From Proales similis (lineage: Eukaryota; Rotifera; Eurotatoria; Ploima; Proalidae), in the NCBI GenBank assembly GCA_019059635.1, contig JAGVRJ010000006.1:1984001-2048000 (forward strand): a stretch of 64,000 bases of DNA, written 5' to 3'. The position numbers were made by a program, and so were the translations under genes. Positions 24,818 to 45,305 of this stretch are shown one piece after another. The notes below the pieces were generated by a model. The model made no database searches. It had not been told where the DNA came from and saw only the letters and a list, made by a program, of their open reading frames with translations. Each line of letters begins with the position of its first letter. Within the stretch, counting starts at the first letter, position 1.

Positions 24818-25969
24818 ATGGACAAACTGAGCAGTTTGATGAGCCGATTTTCATCGCCTTCGCGAGGATCTCGTTCGTCTGAGCGCCGAGGAAAATCCCG
24901 AGAGAAGGGTCAGATTGAACAGACCGAACCAGTGAGAGGCCGCGACTCGGAGCCGTCGAGTAGCCGGCCAAGTTCTGTTTCGTCATCTGTTCCGTCATCG
25001 TCCAGCTCGCCGAAGCTCTCCTCTTCCAACGGTCGAATGAGCCGAATAACTGCTCAGTACAAGGTGCAGAACGACGAGTTCCAAGCGCGAATGATTGGCC
25101 TCAAACTAAGCGCCGGCCTTTCACTCGGCGCCGTTCAGAAAAGCTACTCAGTGAGTCCGTCAAAAAGCTCTCGAACGCCATTGGCAAAGTTTGTTCCAAA
25201 AACGAATCGTTTTGCCGACGAGCCCGTTTATCGAATGGACCACCCGAACCGGGGCTTGGCGATAATCATTAATAACAAGATATTCGACTCTTATCTTGAG
25301 ATGCCGGTCAGAGAGGGCACCGACCGAGACGCGGATGTACTGCAGCGAACGCTTGGCGCACTCGGCTTCAAAGTGCGTCTGTACCAGAACTGTACGGCCG
25401 AGATGATGCGCGAAATGATGCATCGATATGCCCGAGCAGACCACAGCGATTCTGACTGCTTCGCTTGCTTCATAATGTCGCACGGCGAGAACGGAGTGAT
25501 CTACGGCGTTGACAAGGAGATTGAAATCGACAAGCTGATTGAACCGTTCAAATACAATCGGTCGTTGGCCGGCAAGCCGAAGCTCTTTTTTGTCCAGGCA
25601 TGTCGCGGCACTAGGCTGATGGAAGGAATCGACTCAAATCCGTTCGAAGTTCAATATGTCAACAAGATACCGATGGAAGCCGACTTTTTGATCGCCTACT
25701 CGACCATTGCCGGCTTCTACTCGTGGCGAAATTCAACAAACGGCTCTTGGTTCATTCAGTCATTGTGCCACGTGTTGAACGAATCTGACACTGGCCGGAT
25801 GGAGATCATGCAAATACTGACCGCAGTGAATAGACGCGTGGCCTTCTTTTACGAGTCGAACACCACAGAGCCGCACATGCATGGAAAGAGGCAAGTGCCC
25901 TGTATAGTGTCAATGCTCACCAAAGAGCTTTACTTCAGACCCAAAATCTCTTCAAGCCAGCTTGATTGA
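24818..25969 (+). CDS. Caspase (executioner-type)
   Basis: Cysteine protease of apoptosis. Intronless, 383 aa. Residues 1-~115 form a Ser/Arg-rich prodomain without a CARD or death-effector fold. The p20 region runs from about 130 (YRMDHPNRGLAIIINNKIFD), with the catalytic dyad His222 in MSHGENG and Cys262 in QACRG. An Asp-containing linker (MEGIDSNPFE) offers a processing site between the large and small subunits, and the p10 subunit starts around ADFLIAYSTIAGFYSWR, with NGSWFIQSLCHVL and REVPC-like KRQVPCIVSMLTKELYF at the end. All substrate-binding features visible are consistent with an active protease. Lack of a recruitment domain favours an effector caspase. The gene is close-packed between TIMELESS and TERT. 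Confidence 0.95.
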   Translation: MDKLSSLMSRFSSPSRGSRSSERRGKSREKGQIEQTEPVRGRDSEPSSSRPSSVSSSVPSSSSSPKLSSSNGRMSRITAQYKVQNDEFQARMIGLKLSAGLSLGAVQKSYSVSPSKSSRTPLAKFVPKTNRFADEPVYRMDHPNRGLAIIINNKIFDSYLEMPVREGTDRDADVLQRTLGALGFKVRLYQNCTAEMMREMMHRYARADHSDSDCFACFIMSHGENGVIYGVDKEIEIDKLIEPFKYNRSLAGKPKLFFVQACRGTRLMEGIDSNPFEVQYVNKIPMEADFLIAYSTIAGFYSWRNSTNGSWFIQSLCHVLNESDTGRMEIMQILTAVNRRVAFFYESNTTEPHMHGKRQVPCIVSMLTKELYFRPKISSSQLD

Positions 25970-26243: not shown

Positions 26244-29200
26244 ATGAACAAGTGTGTGGCTCAGACGAAGAATTTCCTTCTGAACTACTTCGACACAATC
26301 GATTCGGTGGAGAGCTTCCTGCTCAAATTGGACTACGGAAAACAGGACGAGCAGCATGTGCAGCGTCGCAAAGAGATCCTGCGCAAGTTGTCCACGATCG
26401 TCGTGGCGTTCGACTTCAAGTTCGAGGGCAAATTCAAGACCAAAATCAGCCGCCGCTATTCGTACGAGAAAATGCTCTTCCTCTGCTACCTGAAAGTGAA
26501 CGAGTCCGAGCTGCCGTTTTTCGCTCAACATTTGCTGCGCGACACCAGCACAAAGTCATCGAACGGACGGAACCAGTTCAATCGGGGCTCTCGCGCCAAA
26601 GAGAACCGAGACGAGAGCAGCAGCGCCCTGTTGAACATGAGTGACGCGGATGTGGTCCAGTTCTTGGGCAAAAGTGAAAACCTCTGCCTCCGCTATTTCA
26701 TGAGCAAATCGGACGAGGGCAAGTGCTGGCGAGAGCTGTTCGATTTGACCGGCTGTGTGATTATGAAATACATTTGGCTGTACGCGAGTCTCTTTCGTCT
26801 GCTGTCGACTATGAACGGCGAGAACTATGTTCAACTCAGCGGTCCCAAGTTCAACGCCATCTGCCGACATCTGGTCGAACGTCGACTCGATCAGTGTGAG
26901 CAGAGCATTCAGCGCAAATTTCTCCAAAAAGCTGGCAAAGAGGCGAAAAATAAGGAGAAGGACGAGGACGCCTGTTTGAACTGTCCCAGCCTCGAACAGC
27001 GTCAGCTCATCCAGCAGGTGTTTAATAATCGCGAAGAGGAGATGAGAATGGAGCACGAGTCACGGTTCAGCGTCGAGTCACAGCTCAAACGTTTGGGACA
27101 CGAGCGAATAAATCGAAAGCTCATTCTGTACGATCGGTGTCTAACTCACAAGTTTCCGAAAAAACTCATGTACAGCGACCCACAGCTCAAACTGAACCAT
27201 TCAACAGCCGGCCAAATCGCGGAGAAGTTCATTTGGAGTAGAATAAGCCTGGATCAAATGGACAAGCCGGTGGTGGGCCGCGAGATGATGAAAGCCAGAC
27301 TGAACGAGTTTATTCTTGAATTCGCTCGGCGTCATAGGTCTTGTCCCTACCAGGTGAGAGTTTGACTCGGCCTCTCTCTCTCTCTCTTTGCCCTCGAAAG
27401 CTTCTACTTGCACTGGTGTCAAGGCTTTCCTCAGGAGCTATTGCCGGCCCCAGTTAGAGCCGCTTCGAAAGGGTGTAAAGCGCGACCACAACGGCCTGGC
27501 CAAGAACGAGTCGAATTTAGGGCAGGAGAAGCCGATCGACAAGAAGTGCGTGTTTCAGTTCATTCGACGATGCCTCATGTACACTCTGGACCACTCAGAC
27601 AAGGCGAACCAGGATCGAAGCTGTGCGCTCATTGGCGGCAAGCAAAATTTCAAAAACTTCCTACGAAACATCAAAGAGCTGCTAAACGGACTCAAATACG
27701 ACGTGTTCATACTGAACCCGATGTTGCACAAGTTGAAATTCTCTTCTGTGATCTACTTGAGCTCGTTGAAATGTGACAAAATCAAACGACTGGTGCTGCT
27801 CGCCGTGGTCAGATGGCTTATTGAAGACTACGTTCTGATGTTGATTCGAAGTCAATTTTATGTTACGGACACAACCAAGACTAACTATGAGCTGTTCTAC
27901 TTTTTGAAATCGACCTGGAGCGCCCGAGTGAGCTGTCAGATGCAGGAGCTGCGCGAGTTCAGCAAAAACTACAAATTGGAACGAATCACACACGCGCAAG
28001 CGGTCGATTATGCCGTCAAGCGAGAAACGCACGGCATTCACATGGGCCGTCTGCTGCCCAAAGACGTGAACAAGACCGAGTGCCGGATAATAAGCGGCTC
28101 TCGCATATCGGACCCTCGCACGAACAAAATATTCGACGCCAGCTTTCGATTTGTCACCCTAAACACTTGCCTCAGCTGGCTCATCCGTCACGACCGTTCG
28201 TTGATCGGCTTCGCCTGCAACAATCAGACTGAGCTGCACTTGAAGTACAAACGCTTTGTAAACGTCAACTATTTGAGTCGAGCCGAACTCAATCCGCTGA
28301 AGAAATGGAATTTCATCAAGTTCGACTTGGAAAAGTGCTACGACTCGATAAACATAGGCGAGTTGTTCCAGGTCATTTGTGAGCTGTTCGATCGAAAGCT
28401 CGGTCTGGACTATGTGTTCAGTCTGCTGCGGTTTGCCACAGTTGTGCCCGATTTGGACCAGAAGCATCTTGTGGTCAAATATCGAACCATGGCCGTGCGT
28501 CATCTGGTTCACGAGCGCGGCTTCTCAAACGCCATCTCCGATCTTGTGCGTCTAATCGAAAGACCGCGTCTGAGGAGTCGGCCAAGCTGGAGTGTCTATG
28601 TGCCGATCAAAGTGCACGAGTCGAATGTGACCAGTAGACGACTCAAAGACATGCTGGACAAATGCCTGAATCATGTGATGATCAAGCTGCACGATCACAT
28701 ATTCGAACGGGTCGGGGGCATCCTGCACGGCTCCATTTGTTCTCGCAGTCTGTGCGATCTCTACTTGGGCTGGATAGAGAATCAGTTGTTTACCTACGCG
28801 GGCAATCAAAGCCGCTTTCAGCTGAGAGGGCACGACGAGCTGGTGCTTCGCTTTGTCGACGACTATTTGCTCATCGGCACTGACTTGGACCGATTGAGAG
28901 CAATCAGAAACCTGATCGGACAGCGGTTGAAATTCAACGCAGAGAAAACCGAGTCACATGAATGGCAGCCAAGTCCCGGTCGAGATCGACTCTTGCTCGC
29001 TCCGGACTGGTATGAAACGGACGCGGTCGATATAGACTGGCTCAGTTCTCATTCGGGCGTTTACTTTGCCTGGCTTGGCCTCGACTTTGACGTTCACACT
29101 CTTGACTTGTACTCGAACTACGACAAGTACGCAGACGGCTTGCACAATCGGCTCAATGTTTCCAACAACATTCGCTGGCCGTTTCACCAATTCAACTTGA

Positions 29201-29697
29201 AGCTGCTGCGCCTGTTCTATTACGGATCGAACGGCATGCTGCTCGACCACAGAGTGAACAGTCTGCAGGCCATAGTCAGAAATTTCGTCAACATATTCGC
29301 GCTGAGTTCAGTGCGCCTGGTCATTCTGAATCGCTTCATGCCTGACCAAGTGAAAGAGAACGCCAGGCTTCAATTTCGACTTTTGATAAACGCGTGCCAT
29401 CTGCTGGACAACAAACTTGAGAAGCGTTTGGTCAACGAGCTGACGCGTAACCATTTCTTTCGCACATTTGTCCTGATCAAGTACATTTGCCTGCGAACGT
29501 ATGCGCGCCTACTCAGACACTTCAAGGCGTGTACATACTCGCGTCTGCTGAGGCTGATCGAGAAAAATCTAACAAGCAGCGTACTCTACGAGCAGAATAT
29601 TCGCTCTCACTCGAGCGTTTATATCGAGCAACTGGACACACTGATCGAGCAGCAGCTGAGTAAGTTTATGCAGTGCCGACTAAAGGCGAGCAACTGA
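26244..29697 (+). CDS. TERT: Telomerase reverse transcriptase
   Basis: Catalytic subunit of telomerase. Two exons, 26244-27353 and 27424-29697 (1127 aa). The 70-bp intron splits CPYQ from AFLRSYC; this junction restores the seven-residue spacing of the family CPY-x7-C segment. The RNA-binding domain includes ILYDRCLTHKF. In the RT domain: motif T region QFIRRCLMYTL, motif 1 SQFYVTDTTK followed by FYFLKSTW, motif 2 CRIISGSR, motif A FDLEKCYDSI (Asp671), motif B' GGILHGSICSRSLC, motif C LRFVDDYLLIGT (Asp849, Asp850), motif E-like WLGLDFDVHTLDLYSNYDKY; then the C-terminal thumb. All three catalytic aspartates are present. The usual PQGS of motif B' reads LHGS here. Whether a full TEN domain is present in the first ~120 residues is unclear. 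Tandem polyadenylation-type strings follow at 29739-29757. Confidence 0.95.
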
Positions 29698-38189: not shown

Positions 38190-38774
38190 CTAGAATGATT
38201 TGAGCCAATCGGCCACCTTGTTAGTTTTGGGATCGCTTTGGCTGCAGCTGTTGCTGGTTCTACTTGGGCTGCTGTTGACGTCTGAGTTTTCTTTTGATTG
38301 AATAGACGATTCACCGCAGCTACAGACATGACATTCCTGCAATAAACTGCTCTCGCCTCTGCCAAGTGAGCAAACGCTCAGACGATCGAACGACTGAACG
38401 CTCACGCTATCCAAGTTTTCAAGGTTCAGTGCGTCAAGCTGCTGGCAGCTCTTGATCAACTCGTTTCGCAAATCTAAACCGTGCGAATTGAACATTGAAT
38501 CGCTCAGACTATCGATTCTCGCTGTCGAAGATGCGTGTGCGGAAGGGATCATATGGCGCAGTCCGGCTAGATTAATTTTGGCTCGATTTTCGTTGGTCAA
38601 CTCGCTCATCCGATTGCTCAGATCGATCCTAGATAGACACTTGCGGCTGGTGTAGGCATTGGACATGTCCGTTTTCTGTTGAGAATTGCTCGAGTCGATA
38701 ATGGCCATCGAGCTCATTGGTAACGTTGATGAGATTGGGCCGCCAGCCGCGTCTGCTTGTGACAGCTTACTCAT
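38190..38774 (-). CDS. Ser/Asn-rich protein of unknown function
   Basis: An open frame of 194 aa, ending WLKSF. It begins MSKLSQADAAGG and is rich in Ser, Asn and Leu, with a short cysteine cluster (CHVCSCGES) near residue 148. A TATAA element lies at 38830-38826, about 55 bp upstream of the ATG, at a sensible distance for a short 5' UTR, and codon choice looks like that of neighbouring host genes. I do not recognise the family. It lies inside the repeat island immediately beside the Copia remnant. An alternative is that ATGAGTAAGC is a splice donor and the frame is fortuitous. Confidence 0.5.
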   Translation of the reverse strand: MSKLSQADAAGGPISSTLPMSSMAIIDSSNSQQKTDMSNAYTSRKCLSRIDLSNRMSELTNENRAKINLAGLRHMIPSAHASSTARIDSLSDSMFNSHGLDLRNELIKSCQQLDALNLENLDSVSVQSFDRLSVCSLGRGESSLLQECHVCSCGESSIQSKENSDVNSSPSRTSNSCSQSDPKTNKVADWLKSF

Positions 38775-39997: not shown

Positions 39998-41896
39998 TTA
40001 AGGAGGCTGCCAAGTCCAAGTGCCATAGGCAGGATCGCGAACAAACACTCGCTCAGAATCGATGTGCTCAGTATCGTCGCAGCCGGGCGAATTCTCGTGC
40101 TGTTGCATACAACAAACCCAATGAGGGGCCAGCAACTGTCCGCCCATGTAGTAGGCGCGATGCTTCCTGCATCCGAACAGAGTTTGATCGTCGAACTGCT
40201 TTGAGCATCTCGAGCAGACTCGGTGTCGTTTCACATTTAATTGCTCGGCCAAGGCGTCCAGCGCATCGTCCAGCAAATTTCTCAGCTCAATGATCTCTTC
40301 GGAGTATTCGAACAGGGCCAGGTCGGGCTGTGCATTTCCGTAATCTCTGATTGTCTGCGACACAATTTCGATGAACGGCACTCCGTTAATCAACTTGCCG
40401 GCCTCCTCAATCGAGTACAGCTCGAATTTGGGAAACTCTTTGAAGTGCGGCTCAATCCATGACTCGAGTTGAAGCTCTTTCTCCACTTGAACGAATATGA
40501 ACGGCTTTCCTCTGCTCACTGCGTATTTGAATTCGAGTCGACAGTTCTCCGATTTCATGTAGCTGTTGGACAAAAAGACTACGATCACCCGGGAGCATTC
40601 CACCGCCGTGGCCATTGACTCGTTTATATTGTCCTGCATGCCGAGCCAAATGTCAAACCAGATGTCTAGTCGTCGATAGTGAAAATCCATGTAAATATCT
40701 CTGACAAGTTTTTGATTTGCCCACTGGTAAGAGATCATGGCGTCGAACTTGTGCCGCACGGGCACTCCGAATTTGTCGAATAGAGACGGCGGCGGCGTAA
40801 AACCGAGCAACGTAGTCTCATAGTGCTGATACGGAAAGAAAAGATCGGACTTGAGCTCTCTTAGCTCCACTTTCACCGGCTTTTCTTCAGGCAGCTCTCG
40901 CAGTTTTCTAGGCGGAGGCCAACTCGAAAGTTTTCCTTTGCACTCATCGATGCGCTCGCGTAACGATTCAATAAGTTTTGTTTCGCGTTCGGTTTGGCCG
41001 GGAGTTGGCGATAGGGCGATTAGGATCGCATTGATGAGATCGCCCATCGGTGTACTCATGTTCTCTTCAAACGATGGCAAGAACGAGGGCTGGTACTTGG
41101 CGGTAAATGCCTGCTCTTTGCTGCCCATCACAAAGAATCGCTTGCCAGCAATAGCTAGTGCAAGCCAATTGTCTGGCTTCCACTTCTTGTCAACTTTGAT
41201 CGGAATCACGTTAACGGCCCTCTTTCGAGCAGATTCTACCACCAGACGACAGCTGACGCTCGTCTCGTACGCGTTGGTCATCATCACGATTAACAGCTGG
41301 CATCCATCTACTCCCGTGACCCCTTTCGAGCTGTTCTCTATTTCTTTCTGAATTGAATGCCGATCTAAAGCTTGGCCGATTACTTCCTCCATGCCTAGAG
41401 CATCGTCCGCATGAGAAATGAGTACTTGGCATCTTTTGGCAGTTTTCTGTAATTCGATTTCCGGCAAAAGATCTTCGTTCATGGTTAAGCTGGTTTCAGT
41501 TTGACTCTGATCCAGCTGTTGCGAGTCGATTGCCTCTTTTAAGTTGTTTAAATCGTTCTCGGTTGAGATCCTTAGCCAGCCAGGATCAACTCCCGCGATG
41601 ATTGCGCCCAAGGCACCAAATGGCCGATAGTCGCGAGCAAAGTTCACTCCCAATAGCTTCTTCTTCAAATCCTTGCCCAAGTGAAGAAGCTCCATACAAG
41701 AGTGCGTGAGTTGAAAAGCGCGTGACGCGACAACAATCATTAAATTGCATGCTTTTATGGCTTGAGCCCGACGAGAGAGTGATCTTGGCTGACTCTCGTT
41801 TAGTTGAACGACACCGAGCAAACCAACCGACTTGAGGTAGTCTTCAACCTTTTGCTGCTCAGCATGGCTGCTTGAATGTGCCACAATCAGAATCAT
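39998..41896 (-). CDS. Triple-TIR protein with C-terminal CHORD-like zinc module
   Basis: Intronless, 632 aa, no signal peptide or membrane helix. Residues 1-~105 (MILIVAHSSSHAEQQ, ACNLMIVVASRAFQLTHSCME) and ~155-265 (RCQVLISHADDALG, GCQLLIVMMTNAYETSVSCR) read as two degenerate TIR folds. Residues 383-~500 form a canonical TIR (FDAMISYQW, IWFDIWLGM, SRVIVVFLSNSYMKSENCRLEF), in which Glu455 sits where SARM1-type TIR NADases carry the catalytic Glu. The second TIR has Val219 at that place. The C-terminus has Cys561, Cys564, Cys576, His579, Cys595, Cys596, Cys606 and His611 with Trp593, close to the CHORD zinc pattern. Likely an intracellular immune or cell-death factor that may cleave NAD; that function is inferred. 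A TATATAA box lies at 41992-41986, upstream of the start. Confidence 0.85.
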   Translation of the reverse strand: MILIVAHSSSHAEQQKVEDYLKSVGLLGVVQLNESQPRSLSRRAQAIKACNLMIVVASRAFQLTHSCMELLHLGKDLKKKLLGVNFARDYRPFGALGAIIAGVDPGWLRISTENDLNNLKEAIDSQQLDQSQTETSLTMNEDLLPEIELQKTAKRCQVLISHADDALGMEEVIGQALDRHSIQKEIENSSKGVTGVDGCQLLIVMMTNAYETSVSCRLVVESARKRAVNVIPIKVDKKWKPDNWLALAIAGKRFFVMGSKEQAFTAKYQPSFLPSFEENMSTPMGDLINAILIALSPTPGQTERETKLIESLRERIDECKGKLSSWPPPRKLRELPEEKPVKVELRELKSDLFFPYQHYETTLLGFTPPPSLFDKFGVPVRHKFDAMISYQWANQKLVRDIYMDFHYRRLDIWFDIWLGMQDNINESMATAVECSRVIVVFLSNSYMKSENCRLEFKYAVSRGKPFIFVQVEKELQLESWIEPHFKEFPKFELYSIEEAGKLINGVPFIEIVSQTIRDYGNAQPDLALFEYSEEIIELRNLLDDALDALAEQLNVKRHRVCSRCSKQFDDQTLFGCRKHRAYYMGGQLLAPHWVCCMQQHENSPGCDDTEHIDSERVFVRDPAYGTWTWQPP

Positions 41897-42134: not shown

Positions 42135-45100
42135 TTATTTCGATTTTTTAAATTTTTTCCCATTTGCTTTTTTCTTGCTTTTTGAGTGCTTCTTGTCGGC
42201 CGGATGCGCAGTGTCCACAGCGGCAGCTTGTGCAGCAGCTGTGTCAAAGTGACTGTCATAGTCAACTTTACGCTTCTCTGTCATTCGCTTTACAGTCAAA
42301 TAGGAGCCTTTGAGCGGCAGCTTCAGCGCGTCTGTCCACTCTTTTTCGCTGCCTTTTATTTCGTACTGCTTGAGAAGCTCTTCGTTCATGAGTCCCTTCT
42401 TCTTCTCGGCCTCCTGAGCTTTTACTTTGTTCGACGCCTCCTTTAGCTCTTCTTCCAGCGACTCTTTCAGTGGCTGAAGTTTTTCCAGTGTTTTCTCATG
42501 CTCCTTTGCATCCTGATTCTTGAACAAAATCTCATCAATGCGGCTGACGTTAGCATCGTCTAATAGACTGATGAGCTTTTTAATTATTTTGTTGAACAGG
42601 GCCAATATTTGTCCGGGCGGAAGTTCAATCTCCTTCTCCAAGTCTTCAACGGTCTTAAACTGCAGACCCATGCCGATTAGAATGGCGGACTGAACCAACG
42701 ACAAGCTGAACTCGGCGCCCAGCTTGTTATTGAAGTAGAGTTTGGCTATCTCTGGCACCATGTCTACCACCAGATGATAGTCGACCAGGTTCTGGGCGTA
42801 CATTTCGAGTCGTTTTAAATCGTATGAGTTGAAACTGCGATCGGCATCTTCTTTGGCCAATTTGCACGACTCTTCCTCGTAGACAGTCTGCTTCATCATA
42901 GAAAGAGCCAGTGACGGAAGGAAACTTCTGAACTGATAGCCGAGCAGCGACGTGAATCGACGTCTGAAGTCGATAAAAAACTCGAGCGCCCACGGACGCT
43001 TGCTTTTTACTTCTTCTTCGTTCAGCTGTTTGACCACAATGCACGAATGCTCGCCGGTCAGCTCGTTCGCAGTCTGCCTCAAATAGACCGGCAAATAGCC
43101 GAGTTTTTTCCAAAACCGAAGCAAATCGTTGGTCAGACCGAACGACACGCCAAGGTAGTCGAGTCGCTCTGCTCTTCGCTCGCTCAGCTTGAGCAGCAAC
43201 GGCGGCAGGTTCTTTCTGGGCTGAATTTCCTCTTCGAGCAAATTGACCTCGCTGTCCTTGACCGCCTCGATCTTCTCCTTCGATCCGTTCAAATCGTCCG
43301 ACTTCTCGTCCAAGTTGAGAATTTTGCCCTCGTAGTATTCTTTGAGCAGATTCATCGCTCGTTGTCCGTAGCCCATGCCCTGGTATTCGGGATGAGTGGC
43401 GATTCGAACGACTCGGGCGCCGGCCAATTTAGGAAAGTCGTTGTCTTGAAACTGCTGTGAGACTGTCCATGGAATGAGATCGCCTGAGGCTCTCTTTCCC
43501 CGTTGCAGGTTCTCTTTCACAGTGCGCTCGCTGATTTCACCTTCTAGACACACTTGCACGACGCAGAGTATTTCCGGCAGACTGCTCAGCTTTTGGCTGT
43601 TGGGAATCGGGCCGAGCAGACAGAAAATGTGATGCGCAGGCGCGTCCGACAGCATTTGCAAGTCGTTGGGTGTGTTTTTGTAATGAGACGCTACGTAGAG
43701 CGACATGAGTCGTTGAAGAAACATTTCAGAGACTTTGTGGTAAGAGAAGAGCGTGTCACGATTCACATAGAACAGATCGCAAGAGTCGGGCGCAGGACAA
43801 CTGGCCGCGCCTCCTAGCAATTGCAAATCATTCGACAACTGACAGCAGTTTAAACAAAGCAGATCATTGAGCCACTTTTCGATCGGGTCGCCAGTGCCGT
43901 AGCGAATCGACTCGTTTAGCTGAAGCTCGTGCAGGGTCTTGCCGTTGGCCGTGCGCTGCAGCTGCTTTTTGATTTCGACGTTATTGCCGGTGAACGAGGC
44001 GCTCTGCTGCCGCAGTTGCTGAATGAGCTTGAGCGATAGCGAACGACCGGTGCCTTCATAGCCGTTTATGGTCGACGCCATGAACACAAGGTACGGCCCA
44101 AGCAAGTTCTTGACCAGAGGAAGCGGAATGGCGGCCGCCTCGTCGATCACCACCAGCTCGGCTTGGCCCAGTTTTATTGAATCAGACGGGTGTATGTATT
44201 GAATTGTTTGGCGGTGCTCTTTGAATATGTTCACTCTGATTATGGCCTTGTTGAACTCGGGATTAGTGGACTGGACTAGCTCGTAGTCGACGTGCTCTTG
44301 GTAGTCGAGTGCGTCGAATCCTTTAAAAACAAAGTCGAACAGAGTGCTGAGATTCTCGGGCGACGGCGAAGTGACAAATATGTTGGCGTAGCCGTAAGCC
44401 ACAGCGGATGCGATTGCCAGGCCCAGCGCAGCCGACTTTCCTCTGCCTCGGGCTGCAGTCAGGGCAACCGTGGCCCTCAGAGTTTTCTCCGAGATTGTGT
44501 CGATGAATTTAAGGACCGACGCAGCCTGGTCCACTGTTTTGCATTGGTTCACGATCGCTTGCGCTGGCTGCTTGCCTTCGATCGACTCTTTGAGCTCTCT
44601 GAGCTCAATTTCATTGGGAGATAGAGCGTCCTCGCTGCTCTTTGGCGGCAACGGCTCAATGTTCAGAGTCGATCTAGAGATTGGCAGCACGTTCAGCTGA
44701 TCGTCAACAACCAGGCAATTTTGACACGAGGTCAATGAGAGAATGAAACGCTCGTTGAATCGAGCAACCACTTCTTGATGGCTCTCGGTTCGGTATCGGC
44801 TGTGAACGTCCATGTTCATTGTGAAAAACTGCTTCAGTGAGTTGACAGTTTTGAGGAGAATAACGACCAGTCCGCCGCCCTCGACTGTTTCGATGGTTCG
44901 CGCCAGAAGGTTCGGCGTCATGGCCTCAAAGTCCTGAAGGACGAGCATGCCGAAGGTGTTGCCCAGAATCTTGTGCGTCTCGTTGTAGTAGCAGTAGCGT
45001 ATGTTGGTGGATGCCACGAATAGCTCGAACGGGTCGTCGTCTTTGACGTCCAGCTTGCCGCATCTAATCTTCTTCTGGATCTGTTTCATTCGCTTCTTGC

Positions 45101-45305
45101 GATGGCTGGAAAAGCCGAGCTCTTTTTTGTAGCACCACAACACGTTGGGTCGAGCTTTGACCTGAGCCTTGCTCAGCATATGGTGTAGAATGACAACCTG
45201 ATCACGGCCTTTGTCGCCGACCACGACGAACAGCGAGCGGTGAAACGCCTGCACTCCATTCTCAATGAGCACCCGAATGCGATTGTCGATTTTCTTCTTA
45301 ACCAT
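42135..45305 (-). CDS. NAT10: RNA cytidine acetyltransferase NAT10
   Basis: Nucleolar enzyme that makes N4-acetylcytidine in 18S rRNA and tRNA, using ATP and acetyl-CoA. Intronless, 1056 aa (human 1025). Very strong full-length agreement: N-terminal DNRIRVLIENGVQAFHRSLF, then GDKGRDQVVILHHMLSKA and ELGFSSHRKKRMKQIQKKI; the RecA-like helicase with Walker A ARGRGKSAALGLA near residue 285 and the DEAAAIPLPLVKNLLGPYL segment; the GNAT domain with RIATHPEYQGMGYGQRA near 640; and LDYLGVSFGLT plus the tRNA-binding C-terminal part. The last ~60 residues are Lys/Ala-rich, typical of nucleolar targeting. All ancestral introns have been lost. It is head-to-head with DE PDC5 at 206 bp. Confidence 0.98.
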   Translation of the reverse strand: MVKKKIDNRIRVLIENGVQAFHRSLFVVVGDKGRDQVVILHHMLSKAQVKARPNVLWCYKKELGFSSHRKKRMKQIQKKIRCGKLDVKDDDPFELFVASTNIRYCYYNETHKILGNTFGMLVLQDFEAMTPNLLARTIETVEGGGLVVILLKTVNSLKQFFTMNMDVHSRYRTESHQEVVARFNERFILSLTSCQNCLVVDDQLNVLPISRSTLNIEPLPPKSSEDALSPNEIELRELKESIEGKQPAQAIVNQCKTVDQAASVLKFIDTISEKTLRATVALTAARGRGKSAALGLAIASAVAYGYANIFVTSPSPENLSTLFDFVFKGFDALDYQEHVDYELVQSTNPEFNKAIIRVNIFKEHRQTIQYIHPSDSIKLGQAELVVIDEAAAIPLPLVKNLLGPYLVFMASTINGYEGTGRSLSLKLIQQLRQQSASFTGNNVEIKKQLQRTANGKTLHELQLNESIRYGTGDPIEKWLNDLLCLNCCQLSNDLQLLGGAASCPAPDSCDLFYVNRDTLFSYHKVSEMFLQRLMSLYVASHYKNTPNDLQMLSDAPAHHIFCLLGPIPNSQKLSSLPEILCVVQVCLEGEISERTVKENLQRGKRASGDLIPWTVSQQFQDNDFPKLAGARVVRIATHPEYQGMGYGQRAMNLLKEYYEGKILNLDEKSDDLNGSKEKIEAVKDSEVNLLEEEIQPRKNLPPLLLKLSERRAERLDYLGVSFGLTNDLLRFWKKLGYLPVYLRQTANELTGEHSCIVVKQLNEEEVKSKRPWALEFFIDFRRRFTSLLGYQFRSFLPSLALSMMKQTVYEEESCKLAKEDADRSFNSYDLKRLEMYAQNLVDYHLVVDMVPEIAKLYFNNKLGAEFSLSLVQSAILIGMGLQFKTVEDLEKEIELPPGQILALFNKIIKKLISLLDDANVSRIDEILFKNQDAKEHEKTLEKLQPLKESLEEELKEASNKVKAQEAEKKKGLMNEELLKQYEIKGSEKEWTDALKLPLKGSYLTVKRMTEKRKVDYDSHFDTAAAQAAAVDTAHPADKKHSKSKKKANGKKFKKSK

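Follow-up and report, generated by a model that had tools for sequence, protein, structure and literature searches.

We found that a 64-kb window of the rotifer Proales similis genome (the whole stretch of DNA analysed, 64,000 nucleotides) carries on its minus strand a real and complete gene for a protein in which three TIR-like modules precede a zinc-type Cys/His tail, and in which the glutamate position of SARM1-type NADases is occupied by glutamate in the third module and by other residues in the first two. We consider it moderately probable, from sequence comparison, that the product is a conserved TIR scaffold or sensor protein of monogonont rotifers, probably cytosolic, with Glu-less TIR1 and TIR2, a Glu-bearing TIR3 and a zinc tail. 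The original prediction of a single intronless frame with three TIR-like modules and a Cys/His tail was borne out, and the full-length homologs start and end at matching residues, with the exception of P0002 from Brachionus plicatilis, which has an extended C-terminus. The coordinates are collected in Table 1. A NAT10 gene, assigned by Pfam, lies upstream on the same strand at 42135-45305, 238 bases away, and downstream no frame of at least 100 residues is listed before 38190-38774. Beyond the TIRs and a BTK motif, the Pfam scan of the whole protein returned sub-cut-off matches only (Med22, Mcm-like_N and DUF3618); plain membrane helices are not reported by Pfam, and the cytosolic location is to be read as putative.

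Table 1. Features of the triple-TIR gene (positions in the window; residue numbers of the Proales protein)
Feature	Position	Strand	Basis or remark
TIR1-TIR2-TIR3-zinc-type tail gene, 632 aa, one open frame	39998..41896	-	frame list and matching homolog ends
TIR1, residues 1-128	41513..41896	-	Glu position is Leu70
TIR2, residues 150-262	41111..41449	-	Glu position is Val219; profile match to TIR3
Conserved linker, residues 300-365 (ERE...EECK.KL..WPPP...KPVKV)	40802..40999	-	29-53% identity to the Proales protein in the 14 relatives covering the region
TIR3, residues 380-525, best conserved module	40322..40759	-	
Glu455 codon, within CRLEF	40532..40534	-	Glu in 19/19 aligned sequences
Predicted helix, residues 533-553, TIR3/tail junction	40238..40300	-	from the secondary structure of the model, at moderate confidence
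Zinc-type tail, residues 555-632; ligand positions C561 C564 C576 H579 C595 C596 C606 H611	40001..40234	-	invariance and BTK motif match

The first protein-database search returned three relatives, including P0002 and a partial protein of B. calyciflorus (P0003); a profile search added two more partial relatives and a single-TIR protein of the bdelloid Rotaria magnacalcarata (P0006), and the TIR3-plus-tail part of P0003, used as a query, retrieved 14 proteins, of which seven are 613-635 residues long. The resulting family alignment comprised 10 full-length copies, among them the Proales protein, its paralog and P0002, together with 9 partial sequences. The paralog was found in the searches of the Proales assembly (32,716,893 bases, 15 contigs), where it occupies a single open frame on another contig and shares 28% identity over the full length. 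The domain order that had been proposed for comparison in relatives is complete in all 10 full-length copies, both Proales paralogs included. The named matches of these three protein searches were rotifers only, in two of the searches among the 7997 candidates with most shared words, which alone were scored; the family is so far named in Proales and two Brachionus species, and the remaining copies are presumably of rotifer origin too. The tree has one supported group for TIR1, another for TIR3, and one for TIR2 except for L035, a very long-branched segment of the Proales genome. Since each module groups by type, the three-module layout probably predates the split of the sampled copies. The database name of P0002 is 'General transcription factor IIH subunit 2', and Pfam finds in it a TIR and a sub-cut-off BTK motif; the end of its sequence departs from that of its relatives, as if the gene model had overrun the true end.

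TIR3 is a member of the TIR domain superfamily by fold and profile match, and its model matched adaptor TIRs (MyD88, IL-1R family) and NADase TIRs (SARM1, RUN1) with tied Z scores. TIR2 matched TIR3 in the profile comparison (97.8%, E 6.5e-12), and the isolated module matched TIR_2 (PF13676) at E 0.0018, below the curated cut-off. The assignment of TIR1 to the superfamily comes from its model fold and its profile match to TIR2, the direct profile match to TIR3 being not significant (5.1%). The whole-protein model, built on a 5-sequence alignment, had a pLDDT of 62, and its structural matches fell mostly on TIR3, so that it barely tests the fold of TIR2. The fold comparison suggested with the original prediction thus held for TIR3, the model of which matches the SARM1 TIR, and for the TIR1 fold; it gave no confident model of the tail (AlphaFold2, 15 sequences, pLDDT 63), and the PDB search of this model, which had no match (best E 5), is uninformative either way. 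Sugar-isomerase-type entries in the top Foldseek rows, covering several modules with an rmsd of about 19-24, were dropped as multi-Rossmann alignments. A search of solved structures with the whole single sequence gave no match.

The glutamate position separates the three modules. The residue is L, M, V or I in TIR1 of 10/10 full-length copies, paralog included, and V, L, I or M in TIR2 of 10/10, while TIR3 has Glu in 18/18 sequences, and in 19/19 of the larger alignment. It had been predicted that only the third TIR keeps the residue (Glu455), with Val219 in TIR2 and a Glu69 out of register in TIR1; this holds family-wide, Glu69 being one place off and Leu70 the aligned residue. The 22 other TIR segments of the Proales similis genome, a set without two stop-containing segments, the 55-residue L033 and the TIRs of both paralogs, carry Glu in 20 cases, Gln in one and Leu in one, the single Leu being that of L035, which is very long-branched and may be misaligned. 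In the part of a published TIR survey available to us (PMC7075850), over 70% of all TIRs have this Glu. Because it is so common there and in 20/22 of the other genome segments, the Glu of TIR3 does not discriminate for NADase activity; judged by sequence, what is informative is that TIR1 and TIR2 consistently lack it, the Glu of TIR3 being the default state. The conserved combination of TIRs with and without Glu in one chain would offer a natural test of whether this Glu serves assembly or catalysis.

An NADase activity of TIR3 is possible. As a tentative alternative to the scaffold reading, TIR3 would be an NAD-cleaving enzyme acting through Glu455, kept inactive by the pseudo-TIRs TIR1 and TIR2 and with the zinc tail as its switch, and the protein would be a defence or cell-death factor that depletes NAD or produces an NAD-derived signal. 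The high conservation of TIR3 fits such an enzyme as well, and in the same part of the survey Glu exceeds 90% in the plant NB-LRR and SARM1 groups, both with reported NADase activity (PMC7075850). The survey text also gives more than 90% for the TLR1/2/6/10 subgroup and states that Glu frequency need not track enzymatic activity, and the frequency of Glu among TIRs in general and in this genome counts against the enzyme. So does the neighbouring position: according to that text, a SARM1 Trp (W71 in its numbering) four residues N-terminal of the Glu binds ligand (PMC7075850). If the alignment is gap-free here, the equivalent residue is Asn451 in Proales TIR3, and Asn in 18/19 and Arg in 1/19 of the sequences, in place of Trp. 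We take the conserved W204 of AbTir to be at the same position as the SARM1 Trp before the Glu. Its replacement by Ala significantly lowered NADase activity with product still formed, as described in the consulted part of PMC10937652. The SARM1 loop is given in the survey as E-(R/K)-L-E-A-G, the first, second and sixth residues being called important for catalysis (PMC7075850, same portion). With the register set by hand, the first position is Trp in 18/18 TIR3 sequences, the second is Gly in 16, with Leu in the Proales protein and Arg in its paralog, and the sixth is Asp in the Proales protein and Gly in 14/18. In this putative, hand-set register the catalytic loop residues deviate from those of SARM1, which also argues against the enzyme. 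TIR3 shares with SARM1, an ARM-SAM-SAM-TIR NADase, the Glu at the C-D strand position, whereas the rotifer protein has three TIR-like modules, Asn for Trp, a Cys/His tail and no SAM or ARM match in Pfam before the TIRs, the short repeat models of which can miss such domains.

A rather unlikely alternative is that TIR3 signals solely through recruitment of other TIR proteins, MyD88-like or not, and that the tail is a Tec-kinase-like structural clamp on the neighbouring domain with no part in sensing. The best sequence match of the family profile among solved structures is MyD88 (E 0.00013), the tail has a BTK motif match, and the genome encodes a Death+TIR protein (L009), all of which fit this possibility. 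The MyD88 match is weak, however, and follows a common TIR pattern, TIR3 alone reaching only E 0.28, and the Glu that is constant in TIR3 is rare (less than 10%) in MyD88, TIRAP and the endosomal TLRs in the available part of the survey (PMC7075850). The tail has more ligand positions than the BTK motif, and the scans detected no PH domain N-terminal to it. In Tec kinases a PH domain stands before the BTK motif.

The C-terminal Cys/His module that had been noticed is confirmed by its eight Cys/His ligand positions, which are invariant in 16/16 tails, that is in all aligned sequences reaching this region, and from these invariant ligands zinc binding is predicted. The BTK motif (Pfam PF00779) matched in 13/13 distinct family proteins scanned, mostly under the cut-off: 5/5 members in the first alignment (E <= 5) and 10/10 of a second set at E <= 1, 3/10 of the latter above the curated cut-off, with the tail-bearing P0007, P0014 and P0015 outside these scans. 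Against a cut-off of 24 bits, the whole Proales protein scored 18.8, the tail alone 22.1 and the genome search 24.0, just at the cut-off. As in the Tec kinase motif, the match runs without net gap, residues 592-610 aligning on model positions 11-29; the rotifer tail differs in its additional conserved ligand positions, an extra Cys pair and a Cys-x2-His in front of the BTK-type core and a His at its end, and in a TIR instead of a kinase context. Compared with solved zinc domains, the profile of the tail-containing alignment matched ITK (E 0.011), BTK (0.63) and BMX (1.3), weakly, and no others. These BTK-family matches require the family profile, the tail as a single sequence giving no match in the solved-structure search.

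The tail had been read at first as CHORD-like, and part of this description stands: the ligand order is kept in 16/16 tails, with C-x2-H, W-x-CC and C-x4-H as in CHORDC1 and RAR1, and a four-sequence alignment of the tail with the genome's own CHORD segments has nine invariant columns. The spacing differs at two places, the first Cys pair being C-x2-C in the tail and C-x4-C in CHORD, and the CC-C spacing being 9 in the tail (CC-x9-C) against 15 in the genome's CHORD segments (CC-x15-C). No CHORD profile match was returned in the Pfam scans up to E 10 for the Proales protein and tail, or up to E 5 and E 1 for the relatives. At E <= 0.001, PF04968 gave two matches across the genome, both in one CHORD gene on contig C2 (best 1.0e-23), and did not find the triple-TIR gene. 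The tail alignment profile also failed to match the CHORD structures 2yrt and 2xcm, both of which were matched by the rotifer CHORD. On the profile searches and the spacing, the CHORD identity was rejected, and a genuine CHORD domain that binds HSP90-type chaperones is very improbable here. We call the tail a putative BTK-like motif extended to eight positions, with a CHORD-like order. Both the CHORD reading and the misnamed database entry P0002 are hereby corrected.

The order of TIR followed by a BTK motif is itself already known, contrary to the original claim that no family with such an order had been described. In the text available from a study of 2016 (PMC5094078), the sea anemone 'Novel Gene 2' (NG2) of six species has one or two TIR_2 domains upstream of a BTK motif. 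NG2 and the rotifer gene share a TIR_2 upstream of a BTK-type zinc motif, the BTK match of the rotifer proteins being near or below the cut-off in most members, but the rotifers have three TIR-like modules, two of them Glu-less, and an eight-position tail. This comparison is by description, from the part of that study consulted, and NG2 may have further divergent TIRs or extra ligands. Neither a three-TIR form in which two TIRs lack the Glu nor this rotifer gene was found in the CC-licensed PMC literature, searched mostly by listing, and the rotifer form is a variant that we did not find described. The TIR-plus-BTK-motif layout is thereby extended from sea anemones to rotifers, and would represent either an ancient kind of animal immune gene or an arrangement invented more than once. 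Of the outside rows in the tree, the TIR of P0006 stands closest to TIR3 (98/87); that protein differs by its single TIR and by another zinc finger, zf-CCHH (PF10283).

For the scaffold or sensor that we favour, the zinc tail, perhaps with the linker, would bind a partner, a ligand or a cellular site, and TIR1 and TIR2 would provide non-catalytic assembly or inhibitory surfaces. Upon activation, the molecules would stack by TIR-TIR contacts with TIR3 as the output surface. The output would be either cleavage of NAD by TIR3 or the binding of other TIR proteins, and the genome contains at least 22 further TIR segments. Of these two outputs, that of a scaffold is somewhat more likely. We regard it as decidedly unlikely that TIR3 is a single catalytic TIR held covalently by two conserved pseudo-TIRs in a zinc-gated enzyme, with NAD cleavage controlled by the zinc of the tail or by a ligand bound there; such proteins would form a family of animal NADases separate from SARM1.

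Over the whole Proales genome, the TIR_2 profile gave 27 matches; two contained internal stops and were set aside, and the other 25 were translated. The Cys/His tail pattern, searched as a regular expression in the same frame, occurred among the 25 frames in both paralogs only, 5/25 frames being cut at the end of the sequence taken around the match and separate exons escaping such a search. A protein search of the genome for other tail-bearing genes returned the triple-TIR gene, its paralog and a match at E 0.047 with stops in frame. Five matches to the BTK model were obtained: the triple-TIR gene, which scored best, its paralog and three that look like chance frames.

Some other TIR loci of this genome have their own layouts. 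On contig C4, 2025874-2026668 (L009, L034), one frame holds a Death domain and two tandem TIR_2 matches, with Glu in one TIR and Gln in the other, possibly a second Glu-bearing/Glu-less pair. On contig C10, 1656662-1659094 (L025, L026), two equal-scoring TIR matches lie on opposite strands within 2.5 kb with four stops each, and this inverted pair may consist of pseudogenes or of intron-interrupted genes. L012, L015, L017 and L018 have about 390-450 residues before the TIR without other Pfam match at E 0.01.

Other genes were recognised in the 64-kb window. The frame at 24818-25969 (+) encodes a caspase domain over the full model length (Peptidase_C14, E 6.8e-67). A telomerase reverse transcriptase lies at 27388-29697 (+), with Telomerase_RBD at E 8.6e-18, RVT_1 over and TERT_C under the cut-off; a divergent N-terminal part may be encoded by the preceding frame, 26244-27365, in which Pfam recognises nothing at E 0.001. 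Two adjacent hydrophilic repeat-like proteins, at 59156-59824 (-) and 60399-61145 (-), both match YtxH and apolipoprotein models; the former also has a weak LEA_4 match under the cut-off (E 0.00014), and both neighbours are possible LEA-like proteins.
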